A stretch of 64,000 bases of DNA, from assembly GCF_024227435.1 (NCBI RefSeq), contig NZ_CP100445.1:2973369-3037368 (forward strand). The letters are read 5' to 3'. A program made the position numbers and the translations under genes. This DNA is from Natrinema caseinilyticum (lineage in GTDB: Archaea; Halobacteriota; Halobacteria; Halobacteriales; Natrialbaceae). Below the pieces are notes generated by a model, which saw only the letters and a program-made list of their open reading frames with translations, was not told where the DNA came from and ran no database searches. Of this stretch, positions 20,509-57,207 are shown piece by piece (the first letter of the stretch is position 1; every line of letters begins with the position of its first letter).

Positions 20509-20934
20509 CTACGGTGCGCCGTCCGCGATTGCGTACTGGACGTGGACGAACTCCTCGAACGACATCGGCGCTCGCTGTTCGATCTTTTGCTGGATCTCCT
20601 TTGCATCCATGTCGATCTCGAGTTTGCTCTCGACCGCGTCGACGTCGAGGACCGCAGTCGACATTCCGAGCAGCAGGTGCTCGAGTGCTATCGTGACGAT
20701 CGTCTCCGGATCGGGTTCCCCCTCTTCGAGCGCCTGAATCTCCGCTGCTTCCGCCAGCGTGAGGTCGGGCGATTCGCCCCGTGCGAGCGCCTCGAGCCCG
20801 TCCCGTTCCTGGCCGGTTTCGGCCGCGACGGCCTCGGGGCCGCGTCGGTCGACGATCGTCGCGAGGTCGTCCTCGTACTCGGCCCGGAGATCGCCGGGCG
20901 AGTCGGAGACGGTCATCCGCTGTTCGTAGAACAT
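20509..20934 (-). CDS. DUF5791-like haloarchaeal protein
   Basis: A 141-residue acidic protein. Residues 1-75 (MFYEQRMTVSDSPGDLRAEY..., then VAAETGQERDGLEALARGESPDLTLAEAAEIQAL) look like a divergent helix-turn-helix. The C-terminal part (LEHLLLGMSTAVLDVDAVESKL and PMSFEEFVHVQYAIADGAP) is the more conserved half. It resembles the haloarchaeal family I know as DUF5791; the assignment is from memory. No catalytic motif. It follows the moco oxidoreductase promoter region and lies next to the cetZ relic on the opposite strand. Confidence 0.75.
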   Translation of the reverse strand: MFYEQRMTVSDSPGDLRAEYEDDLATIVDRRGPEAVAAETGQERDGLEALARGESPDLTLAEAAEIQALEEGEPDPETIVTIALEHLLLGMSTAVLDVDAVESKLEIDMDAKEIQQKIEQRAPMSFEEFVHVQYAIADGAP

Positions 20935-21018
20935 ACCCGAACGAAGGGGAATGCGCCAGATAGGTATTGTGACCTTCGTCGGACGGGGCGCCGCAAGGTC
21001 GGCCACGGGCCCGAGTCG

Positions 21019-21525
21019 TGTGTGTCCGCTCGCTTGACGGCATCGTCACCTCGAAGGCGGAAGCTATTTTCATCGATGCCGGCCTCGGCGGCGGGACCGG
21101 CAGCGGCGGTGCGCCCGTCTTCGTCCACCACCTCCAGCAGGTCTACGACGGTCCGGTCTACGCACTCGGCGTCTGCGTCTTGCCGGGACGAAACGAGGGG
21201 ACGCTCTACCAGGCCAACGCCGGCCGCTCGCTGAAGACGCTCCTCAGGAGGTCGATTCGGTGCTGCTCGTCGTCGCAGGCCAGCCGGATCCCCGAAAGCG
21301 AGTCGGTGACTTGAGGACGAAACCGGCAGAATGCAGGTCCGGGACGGAGACGTTCCGCTGGTCAGCGACCAACTCGGCGCGCTGGTGTTACTCGGCGGAG
21401 CGGAACGGTCGGATCGGATTCAATGGTTCGTGGACCGAGCGCGTGACGCAACGCGCGCACAGGAGCGGGAATCGACGGACCACGCCGAGCAGTTCGCGGA
21501 CGACCGACTCGAGAATCTCTTCTAG
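21019..21525 (+). pseudogene. cetZ: CetZ (tubulin/FtsZ superfamily) pseudogene
   Basis: Frame one (about 21048-21240) reads [19 protein letters not shown], then APVFVHHLQQVYDGPVYALG and LPGRNEGTLYQANAGRSLKT. The first part carries the tubulin signature GGGTGSGG and matches the middle of CetZ proteins. The frame then shifts: another frame gives EVDSVLLVVAGQPDPRKRVG, and a third (21331-21525) gives MQVRDGDVPLVSDQLGALVL, then LGGAERSDRIQWFVDRAR, ending DRLENLF as CetZs do. The N-terminal nucleotide-binding start (GFGQAG-type) and roughly 150 residues between the two blocks are missing. It is therefore a relic with at least one large deletion and two frameshifts. A six-base insertion (tgcgtc) also sits in the ALGVLPG block. 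Confidence 0.85.
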
Positions 21526-21595
21526 TCGATCCTGAACCCACGGCGATCCTGAACCGATGGAAGGGCTTTTTACTTCGGCTTCGCTGACAGTGATA

Positions 21596-23566
21596 ATGAC
21601 CGACGAGTGGGTCGGTGGGATCGTCACCGACCGCAACGGCGACGGTCCACCGACCGTCGAGGAGTGGCGACTCGTATCGGTTCCCGGGCGCCCAAGGGGG
21701 TTCGACGGGGGACCGATCGCCTATCGAACGAACTTCACGGACCCCCGAGGCGACGAGACCGAACGGGCGCTACTCGAACTCCGTGGCGCGTACGACCGCG
21801 CGACGGTCTGGCTGAACGGCACGCGCCTCGGGACGAACGAACCGCACTTCGTTCCCCTTCGTCTCGAGTTCGAACCGCAGCCCGAAAACGAACTGATCGT
21901 CGTCTGCGAGCGACCCGATTCGTTTGCGGGGATCTACGAGACCGACGAGGTGCCGGCCCACTTCGGGACGCCGGGTATCTGGGGGGACGTCGAGATCGAG
22001 TCGCGGCCCGCGGTCTTTCTCCGGCGGCTCGAGGCACGGCCGCGCGTCGGCGCGAGTCCGAAGTCACAGCGGAACGCGGGGACGACGGAGGAAGCGGCCG
22101 CACGCGCGACCACCGACGGTGCGAATGCGACGGAGGAAACGGCCGCACGCGCGACCACCGACGGTGCGGGTGCGACGATCGACGTCGCACTCGAGATCGA
22201 TGCGGGCGAGGCGGTCGACGATGCGGTGTCGCTATCGCTCCGGCCGGAAGGGTTTCGCGGCGGTGCCACGATGGAGCGGGTTCCGATTCGAGCCGACGCG
22301 GGCGAGCGGACGACGGTGTCGAAGACGATCTCGATCAAGGATCCGTCGCTGTGGTGGCCCCGCGGGTACGGCCCGCAGCGCCGGTATACGGTCCGGGCGA
22401 AACTCGGCGGCGACGCCGTCGAACGAACCGTCGGTCTCCGGACCGTCGAGCGAGACGACGACGGGCTGGTGGTAAACGGACGTCGCGTCCGCGCTCACGG
22501 ATTCACGCGCCTTCCCGGCGGCGACCCGCGCGACGACGTCGACCGGGCGGTCGACGCGAACGCGACGATGCTTCGCGCCCGCGCGCACGTCCCGGCACGA
22601 GAATTTTACACCGCCTGTGACGAAGCGGGCATCCTGGTCTGGCAGGATCTGCCCGCCACCGGAATCGGGTCCGAACTGCCGGTCGATCGGGGGACGGAAC
22701 TGGCGGCAGCGCTCGCCGAGGAATACGGCCAGCATCCCAGCCTCGCGATGCTCGCCGTGAACGATCAGCCGGAGGATCCGTTCGCGGATCCGCTCGGAAG
22801 CGGCGTCTTCTCGAAACTCGCGTTTCGCTATCGGGCGTGGCGGACGTCGGTCGACCACGACCCCGCAACCGAGATCGCCGCGTCGATTCCCGGCGATCTA
22901 CCCGTCGTCCCGACGATCGGCGCGCCGGGAACCGGCGCGGACGCGTCCCACCTCGCGCTCGGCTGGCAGTACCTCGAGGCGGGCGATATCGACTGGCTGC
23001 TCGAGACGTATCCCGCTCTGGGCACCGTCGTCGGCGGGTTCGGAACCGGTTCCCTCGCGACCGACGACGCCGATCCCGCGGCGATTCCGGGGATCGATCC
23101 GACGCTGCTCGAGCGGCGAGCGGACGATGCCGACGCGTCCCAACTCGAGCAGGCGCGGACGCTGAAGGTGGTCGCGGAAGCGCTCCGACGGCGGGACTGT
23201 GGCATCGTGACGGCGTCGACGCTGCGCGATAGTGCGCCAGGCGGCGGGATGGGCGTTCACACGGTCGATGGCGAGCCGAAGCGGGCCGCCGAGGCGATTT
23301 CGCGATCGTTCGAGCCCGTCCAGGCTGTTCTCGACGGCCCGGCCAGTCCGGGAACGGTCGGGATCACCCTCTGTAACGCCACGCACGATGCGCTCGAGCC
23401 GGTCGTCGGCTGGCGGGTCGGTGACGACACGGAGACCGAGCGGGTCAGCGTCGGGCCGCTCGAGACGACGCCGGTCGGAACGGTTCGAATCCCGCGGGAC
23501 GCAGAGCGGGTCGACCTCGAGGTGGCCGTCAACGGTCGGTCAGTCTGGAACAGCTACGAGTTGTAA
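21596..23566 (+). CDS. Glycoside hydrolase family 2-like protein, probable pseudoenzyme
   Basis: A 656-residue multidomain protein with GH2 architecture. A sugar-binding jelly roll comes first (RATVWLNGTRLGTNEPHFVP, GIWGDVEIESRP), then an Ig-like domain (KDPSLWWPRGYGPQRRYTV), then a TIM barrel (VNGRRVRAHGFTRLPG, FYTACDEAGILVWQDLP). The acid/base position, normally NE, reads AVNDQPEDP, and the nucleophile position, normally SEFG or SEYG, reads VVGGFGTGS. Both catalytic glutamates therefore appear lost. No signal peptide. ATG at 21596 has ttttta about 27 bases upstream; an earlier in-frame ATG at 21557 lies upstream of that promoter. It may be a carbohydrate-binding or regulatory protein. Confidence 0.8.
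   Translation: MTDEWVGGIVTDRNGDGPPTVEEWRLVSVPGRPRGFDGGPIAYRTNFTDPRGDETERALLELRGAYDRATVWLNGTRLGTNEPHFVPLRLEFEPQPENELIVVCERPDSFAGIYETDEVPAHFGTPGIWGDVEIESRPAVFLRRLEARPRVGASPKSQRNAGTTEEAAARATTDGANATEETAARATTDGAGATIDVALEIDAGEAVDDAVSLSLRPEGFRGGATMERVPIRADAGERTTVSKTISIKDPSLWWPRGYGPQRRYTVRAKLGGDAVERTVGLRTVERDDDGLVVNGRRVRAHGFTRLPGGDPRDDVDRAVDANATMLRARAHVPAREFYTACDEAGILVWQDLPATGIGSELPVDRGTELAAALAEEYGQHPSLAMLAVNDQPEDPFADPLGSGVFSKLAFRYRAWRTSVDHDPATEIAASIPGDLPVVPTIGAPGTGADASHLALGWQYLEAGDIDWLLETYPALGTVVGGFGTGSLATDDADPAAIPGIDPTLLERRADDADASQLEQARTLKVVAEALRRRDCGIVTASTLRDSAPGGGMGVHTVDGEPKRAAEAISRSFEPVQAVLDGPASPGTVGITLCNATHDALEPVVGWRVGDDTETERVSVGPLETTPVGTVRIPRDAERVDLEVAVNGRSVWNSYEL
22084..22173 (+). repeat. 45-bp tandem duplication in the GH2-like gene
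   Basis: Two near-identical 45-base units (22084-22128 and 22129-22173) encode TEEAAARATTDGANA and TEETAARATTDGAGA, an Ala/Thr-rich linker inserted before the Ig-like domain. In frame, so probably a tolerated slippage expansion. Confidence 0.85.
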
Positions 23567-48589: not shown

Positions 48590-49762
48590 ATGGACTCTAT
48601 CATCGACGACGCAATCGACGAGGCCGAGAACGGGGACCCCGCCGGGGCTCCTCACGGCGCCCCGGGTGAGGGACAATCATCCGACGGTGACACATCGGAA
48701 AGCCGACAGACGGGGACGATGACCGACGACCAACTGGAGGACGTTCTGCAGGACCTTCAGACCGACATTACGGTCGTCGGCTGCGGCGGTGCCGGTGGCA
48801 ACACGATCAATCGAATGCACGAGGAGGGCATCCACGGCGCGAAACTCGTCGCCGCCAACACCGACGTCCAGCACCTCGTCGAGATCGATGCCGACACCAA
48901 GATCCTCATGGGCGAGGAAAAGACCGGCGGTCGCGGAGCCGGTTCGTTGCCCCAGGTCGGAGAGGAAGCCGCCCTCGAGAGCCAGCAGGACATCTACGAC
49001 GCCATCGACGGCTCGGACATGGTCTTCGTCACGGCCGGACTCGGCGGTGGCACCGGGACCGGCTCCGCGCCGGTCGTCGCCAAAGCCGCCCGAGAAGCCG
49101 GCGCGTTGACGATCTCGATCGTCACCACGCCCTTTACCGCCGAAGGTGAAGTCCGGCGGACCAACGCCGAGGCCGGACTCGAGCGCCTCCGCGACGTTTC
49201 CGACACCGTCATCGTCGTCCCCAACGACCGACTGCTCGACTCCGTCGGCAAGCTTCCCGTTCGACAGGCGTTCAAGGTCTCCGACGAGGTCCTGATGCGC
49301 TCGGTCAAGGGGATTACGGAACTCATCACGAAACCCGGCCTCGTCAACCTGGACTTCGCCGACGTCCGCACGGTCATGGAACGCGGCGGCGTGGCCATGA
49401 TCGGACTCGGCGAAGCCGATTCCGAAGCCAAAGCGGAGGACTCCGTCAAGACCGCGCTGCGTTCGCCGCTGCTCGACGTCGACATCTCGGGGGCGAGTTC
49501 CGCGCTCGTCAACGTGACCGGCGGCAACGACATGGCAATCGAAGAAGCCGAGGGCGTCGTCGAGGAGATTTACGATCGGATCGACCCCGACGCCCGCATC
49601 ATCTGGGGGACCTCGATCGACGAGAGCCTCGAGGGGAGCATGCGGACGATGATCGTCGTCACCGGCGTTCAGTCGCCCCAGATTTACGGGCGCCCCAACG
49701 GCGAGGCCAGCGTTCAGCCCGAAGCGCCCGCGCAAGGCGACGACATCGATTTCGTCGACTGA
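48590..49762 (+). CDS. ftsZ1: Cell-division protein FtsZ1
   Basis: A 390-residue tubulin-fold GTPase. N-terminal nucleotide-site [15 protein letters not shown], the GTPase signature GGGTGTG at 152-158 ([16 protein letters not shown]), and the T7 loop ([12 protein letters not shown], near 262-267) are intact. The acidic N-terminal extension (about 1-45) and the C-terminal [11 protein letters not shown] match haloarchaeal FtsZ1. It forms the division ring that, together with FtsZ2, drives septation. Start ATG 48590. Confidence 0.97.
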
Positions 49763-56122: not shown

Positions 56123-56403
56123 GCGGCCGGTCGCGCCGCGGACGCGACAGCGCCCTCGACGCCCCCTCGAGAGACCGCCGCGCGTTCTTTTCGCGCTCGC
56201 GGCTGGTAGCGGTACGCACTGCGTCTCGCCCCGCCGAACCGGGAGTCGACGCTCCCGGTACTCGGAGATACGTGTCGAGCGTTACGCCGCGCGGCCGCGA
56301 ACCCCCCTCCCGTCGAAGCGCGCATCCGACAGTCTCCGTCGCCGACAGTAACCCTGCGTTGTTAGGGACAGTTCATAATTCCGATGGTACTCAACTCGTT
56401 TCC

Positions 56404-57207
56404 ATGTCCCAAGGACATACCCGTCGACGCACGCTGACGCTGATCGGAACCGCAGGAGCCGGCCTGGTGGCCGGTAGTTTCGGCGCCGCGAGCGACGACC
56501 ACGCAGGTGACAGCGGACAGGAATCGGACGGTAATCACGACGAGGAAGCCACAGCGACTGCTCGCGTTCGCGCGGCCCACCTCTCGCCCGACGCGCCGAA
56601 CGTCGACGTCGTAGTCGACGGCGAGACCGTCCTCTCGGACGTTCCGTTCCGCGCGGTGAGCGACTACCTCGAGCTACCCGTCGGGACCGCGAACGTCGCC
56701 ATCTCGGCGACCGACGACCCCGAGACCGTCGTGTTCGATCAGGAACTCGAAATCGCCGAAGGGGCGTTTACGATCGCCGCGCTCGGCGAACTCTCCGAGG
56801 AGAATCAGCCGTTCGCGCCGACCGTGCTGGAGGACGACCTCAGCGACCCCGGCGAGAACGCCCGCGTGCGACTCGTCCACGCCTCGCCGGACGCTCCGGC
56901 GGTCGACGTCACCGTCGGTGGCGGCGAGACGGTCCTGTTCGAGAACGTCGCCTTCGGCGAGGCCGGCGCGCTCGAGGTGCCGGCCGGCGAGTACACCCTC
57001 GAGGTGCGGCCCGCGACCAACTGTAACGATGGGGAGGTCGTCGCCGAGTTCGACGTCGCTCCGGCGGCCGGGAGCGTCTCCACGGCCTTCGCGGTCGGCT
57101 ACCTCGAACCCGACGCTGCTCCCGCGGACGAGGCGTTCGACCTCGAGGTCGTCGCAGACGTTCCGGGGGAGGAGACCCACGACGAGGAGTCGATGGCCGA
57201 GTGCTGA
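56404..57207 (+). CDS. DUF4397 domain protein with Tat-like signal
   Basis: A 267-residue protein. MSQGHTRRRTLTLIGTAGAGLVAG is a twin-arginine signal. Two successive DUF4397 domains (RVRAAHLSPDAPNVDVVVDGE at about 52 and RVRLVHASPDAPAVDVTVGGGE at about 150) follow, separated by acidic linkers. The ending ESMAEC includes a cysteine but no lipobox. DUF4397 proteins are surface beta-sandwich proteins of unclear ligand. ATG 56404. Confidence 0.88.
   Translation: MSQGHTRRRTLTLIGTAGAGLVAGSFGAASDDHAGDSGQESDGNHDEEATATARVRAAHLSPDAPNVDVVVDGETVLSDVPFRAVSDYLELPVGTANVAISATDDPETVVFDQELEIAEGAFTIAALGELSEENQPFAPTVLEDDLSDPGENARVRLVHASPDAPAVDVTVGGGETVLFENVAFGEAGALEVPAGEYTLEVRPATNCNDGEVVAEFDVAPAAGSVSTAFAVGYLEPDAAPADEAFDLEVVADVPGEETHDEESMAEC

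Follow-up and report, generated by a model that had tools for sequence, protein, structure and literature searches.

The stretch at 21019–21525 of the window (the whole 64,000-nt piece of Natrinema caseinilyticum DNA analysed here) had been predicted to hold a CetZ pseudogene beside intact genes. This raises the questions of which gene once stood there, how it was broken and how its remains come to be shared with a second species. Our preferred reading, to which we assign a probability of about 0.93, is that of a unitary cetZ2 pseudogene, which would have been destroyed by three deletions, drifted and later been exchanged between species as a dead allele, leaving only CetZ1. This is ordinary gene decay in a useful evolutionary setting, and the analysis refines the original prediction in gene identity, decay mechanism and history.

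Identity of the remnant

By Pfam profile search, the open reading frame at 21018–21311, which contains block 1 of the remnant (21019–21262, plus strand), matched PF00091, the tubulin/FtsZ GTPase domain, at 43.6 bits (E 5e-11; cut-off 33 bits), and block 2 (21331–21525, plus strand, including the stop codon) matched PF21011 (CetZ_C, the CetZ C-terminal domain) over 21331–21522 at 35.1 bits (E 1e-8; cut-off 21.6 bits). NCBIfam returned only a weak FtsZ match, to block 1. Neither Pfam nor NCBIfam held a family better than tubulin/FtsZ/CetZ for either block, and a different protein family was rejected, as all matches were to tubulin/FtsZ or CetZ models. Homology to CetZ2 begins at ~21019–21033 and ends at the stop codon at 21523–21525, in agreement with the predicted coordinates.

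A PF00091 search of the whole genome recovered the remnant independently, as one of four places, the others being two FtsZ genes and one intact CetZ. An intact ftsZ had been placed 27 kb away, and an intact FtsZ gene is indeed found at that distance downstream, at 48590–49759. The sole intact CetZ of the source genome is CetZ1 (702 bits to the CetZ1 reference 4B46), and a second intact cetZ2 was rejected, with none found elsewhere by whole-genome searches. Block 1 shares 67–85% identity with intact Natrinema CetZ2, as against 46–54% with the other CetZ sequences compared. Block 2 is mostly 75–81% identical to intact Natrinema CetZ2, and its matches to other CetZ proteins are weak or missing. 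An intact Natrinema orthologue scored 495 bits to H. volcanii CetZ2 (PDB 4B45) and 318 bits to CetZ1 (4B46). Because the intact gene beside DUF5791 in Natrinema is CetZ2 and the only intact CetZ of the source genome is CetZ1, the remnant is identified as a dead cetZ2. Judged by its sequence, 21019–21525 is thus a genuine remnant of one of the two CetZ subfamilies conserved in haloarchaea.

By descent the remnant belongs to the CetZ2 subfamily typified by H. volcanii CetZ2 (PDB 4B45; PMC9856176): both blocks align to intact CetZ2, it is closer to CetZ2 than to CetZ1, and it occupies the cetZ2 locus. It is not, however, a working member, which should read through the N-terminal GxGQAGG motif, the GGGTGSGG loop and the catalytic loop in a single frame; the promoter, the N-terminal nucleotide-binding part and the central part are deleted and the reading frame is disrupted. 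The short M-loop of 3–6 aa that characterizes CetZ2 (PMC9856176) falls within a region deleted here.

Both neighbours are intact, as predicted. The DUF5791 gene (20509–21006, minus strand; PF19104, 169 bits; matches in 54 of 61 relatives) is the divergent neighbour that marks the Natrinema cetZ2 locus. The downstream gene (21557–23566, plus strand) probably starts at 21599, encodes a glycosyl hydrolase family 2 domain (PF00703, 29.1 bits) and has a dN/dS of ~0.26 against G023, identified from its annotated loci as Natrinema gelatinilyticum BND6.

Three deletions in the cetZ2 locus

The anatomy of the decay was read from an alignment of both remnants with eight intact orthologues. Three deletions, with the same junctions, are common to the source genome and N. 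gelatinilyticum. The first took away the promoter region together with the first ~82 codons of cetZ2, and its junction lies in the residual spacer by the DUF5791 start (20935–21018, no strand assigned). The window has no copy of the motif CCGGAACGTTNAAC, which immediately precedes the cetZ2 ATG in most of the Natrinema loci checked and which we infer to be a promoter of BRE-TATA type. Block 1 follows, corresponding to ~codons 83–157 of the 360-aa orthologue and including the tubulin signature GGGTGSGG; comparison with N. gelatinilyticum and the intact orthologues places within it a 6-nt tandem duplication (21169–21174, plus strand) private to the source genome.

The second deletion took ~318 nt from the middle of the gene and left a scar (21250–21285, plus strand) between two imperfect direct repeats, GGCCGAYTCGRCGCTGCT, with an identical junction in both genomes. 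In intact cetZ2 the repeat copies code for ADSTLL and ADSALL and lie exactly 318 nt apart; they agree at 17–23 of 30 positions in seven of the eight orthologues, with a random-pair p of 0.003 or less in those seven. Direct repeats at the deletion ends that are more alike than random pairs suggest slippage or repeat-mediated recombination. Beyond the scar is a short remnant of ~codons 264–294 (21263–21330, plus strand), after which the third deletion, a net loss of ~19 nt just before the C-terminal block, changes the frame. Block 2 completes the remnant with the CetZ C-terminal end (MQVRDGDVP...DRLENLF). The remnant pieces thus lie in different frames, and the N. gelatinilyticum copy alone carries a further 1-nt frameshift deletion. 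Relative to intact orthologues, then, the disabling lesions comprise three deletions, the loss of the promoter and breaks of frame. The alignment bears out the original view of two blocks in different frames that represent the middle and end of CetZ, with the N-terminus and a central block lost.

These observations suggest a sequence of events. In the ancestral Natrinema, as relatives show, cetZ2 was intact and lay divergent to the DUF5791 gene, and in one lineage the three deletions destroyed it. The first took the promoter together with the nucleotide-binding N-terminus, and the ~318-nt deletion most likely arose between the short direct repeats by slipped replication or repeat-mediated recombination. 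The remnant should be unable to make a GTPase: it keeps the GGGTGSGG loop but has lost both the GxGQAGG loop of the N-terminus and the catalytic-loop region. CetZ1 is left as the sole CetZ protein.

Drift and probable exchange of the dead allele

The source genome and N. gelatinilyticum are collinear here and ~90% identical, with a silent divergence around the locus of dS ~0.23. The two remnants differ by ~2–3% in substitutions and have a dS of 0.010. Across ~60 kb, 230 coding windows of equal size (131 codons) gave a minimum dS of 0.031 and a median of 0.234. Substitution density, ~5 per 50 nt outside, drops to 0–2 in the stretch from ~21.05 to ~21.7 kb, where a single bin reaches 4, and climbs again beyond it; the opening part of the downstream gene likewise has a low silent divergence, 0.083. 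With no window as low as the remnant, it is probable that the dead allele passed between the two species by recombination once they had separated. The simplest reading is that it moved between the source lineage and the N. gelatinilyticum lineage in a homologous recombination tract of ~0.65 kb, which would account for the very low local divergence. The original prediction had called the decay recent or slow; on this evidence, as a copy common to both species the dead allele is young, given remnants so little diverged within surroundings at dS ~0.23, and it was probably exchanged.

The main rival reading holds that the pseudogene arose once in a common ancestor and was inherited vertically, its low divergence reflecting chance or a slow local mutation rate. 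The identical deletion junctions fit such descent, as does the fact that the two species are mutually closest, by DUF5791 protein, among the genomes searched. Neutral sequence separated since the split should, however, have diverged to near the silent-site level (dS ~0.23), whereas the remnants show substitutions of ~2–3%, and none of the 230 windows has so low a dS; we therefore regard vertical descent as unlikely. The remnant occurs in two genomes only, and its low divergence could also reflect constraint on the nucleotide sequence itself or slow mutation at this place. Silent divergence from N. gelatinilyticum is very low at 56272–57204 as well (dS 0.03–0.06, with windows at 0.03–0.04, against 0.23 around it), perhaps a second recombination tract; mosaic divergence is therefore not special to the cetZ2 locus.

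Comparison of the two remnants over 131 codons gives one silent and nine replacement changes, against 2221 silent and 1403 replacement changes in the surrounding genes of the same two genomes (Fisher p 0.0013). A ratio of 9:1 means that no coding constraint is left. The branch common to both remnants carries five silent and 12 replacement private changes, the latter mostly at otherwise invariant residues, against 58 silent and 26 replacement private changes summed over the intact copies (p 0.005). Private silent changes are undercounted at saturated sites, and for that reason we give no date for the decay. The remnants show no sign of protein-level selection; purifying selection has been lost, and the substitution pattern is that of a sequence now drifting free of coding constraint.

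A new role, be it that of a regulatory RNA, of a small protein or of part of the sequence preceding the next gene, might explain why the remnant is more alike between the two species than its flanks and why its 98-aa first open reading frame is open in both. A protein role sits poorly with the excess of replacement changes, the N. gelatinilyticum frameshift and the 6-nt duplication in the source genome. The low-divergence tract, moreover, extends over the beginning of the downstream gene, where silent divergence is low too, as recombination predicts, and we consider conservation for a new role very improbable. The idea that cetZ2 is really intact and was wrongly sequenced or assembled can be dismissed almost entirely, because hundreds of bases are missing and the same junctions recur in the genome of another species that is only ~90% identical in the region.

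CetZ2 across Natrinema and the family

Intact cetZ2 (~360 aa) is present in 27 of 29 Natrinema genomes, with remnants only in the source genome and N. gelatinilyticum BND6. The intact gene is typically divergent from the DUF5791 gene; in a few genomes (e.g. G001, G009, G014) it lies ~9 kb away. Across the family (125 genomes), CetZ2 is lacking in the Natrinema pair, in two members of genus g5 (G129, G132), in six of the nine g3 genomes, in all five g38 genomes and in G145, as well as in some incomplete genomes. Counting each genus once, this amounts to at least five losses, so that the family turnover first proposed is supported in the form of repeated CetZ2 loss. We infer that g3 is Natronococcus; a Natronococcus record (L126) has no cetZ2 at the DUF5791 locus. 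A search of the 1.5 kb around DUF5791 in the family's other CetZ2-less genomes revealed no remnant, making the Natrinema pair the only place found with decay still visible. G030 and G145 gave only weak CetZ2 matches (E ~1e-15) and so have seemingly lost all CetZ proteins.

CetZ1 without CetZ2 has been reported in 7 of 55 haloarchaeal species, and deletion of cetZ2 in H. volcanii had no known phenotype (PMC9856176). The Natrinema pair resembles those CetZ2-less haloarchaea in having kept CetZ1 and lost CetZ2 function. That report, however, describes absence and nowhere uses the word pseudogene, whereas here decay is caught mid-course, with deletions and a sister species that can be compared. 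A small literature search found no described cetZ2 pseudogene. The two sister species, sharing a dead cetZ2 and left with CetZ1 only in a genus that otherwise keeps the gene intact, offer natural CetZ2 knock-outs for comparing cell shape and motility.

Coupling of CetZ2 loss to archaellum loss in the family was rejected: of the 16 CetZ2-less genomes that are well assembled, 12 keep archaellin (a manual count that includes one weak match, in the source genome), against 77 of 111 good genomes overall. CetZ2-less genomes, among them those of g3 and g38, often keep archaellins, and CetZ2 is therefore not required to keep archaellum genes. Within Natrinema, an archaellum motor gene (arlH by context) occurs in 11 of 29 genomes, all 11 of which keep CetZ2, and both dead copies fall among the 18 without it; CetZ2 was thus lost only in an archaellum-less lineage, a single event that is not significant. 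The dead allele may have spread by recombination because CetZ2 loss is beneficial or neutral in archaellum-less lineages, which would make the pair a natural experiment in dispensing with CetZ2; we hold this to be improbable.

Both remnant species lack the archaellum motor gene. The source genome has one isolated archaellin-like match in a 535-codon frame (G000:C1:2078218–2078595, L159), and N. gelatinilyticum one lone Arch_fla_DE match (G023:C1:2286173–2286436, L160); no decayed archaellum cluster was found near either, only distant partial matches. Among intact copies, the CetZ2 of G028, G022, G080 and G117 (L075, L076, L091 and, by split matches, L094) carries a 17-residue insertion, SVTSKTSRT(S/R)GGAAAAS, between GES and VVDSSEV, with nearly identical DNA in Natrinema and another genus, and that of G020 has a shorter related stretch, DAAAAS; this looks like a small shared insertion that moved between species. 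Lastly, Natronorubrum bangense holds DUF5791 with an intact cetZ2 twice, on the chromosome (L122) and on the 828-kb plasmid NZ_CP031306 (L123), with equal scores.
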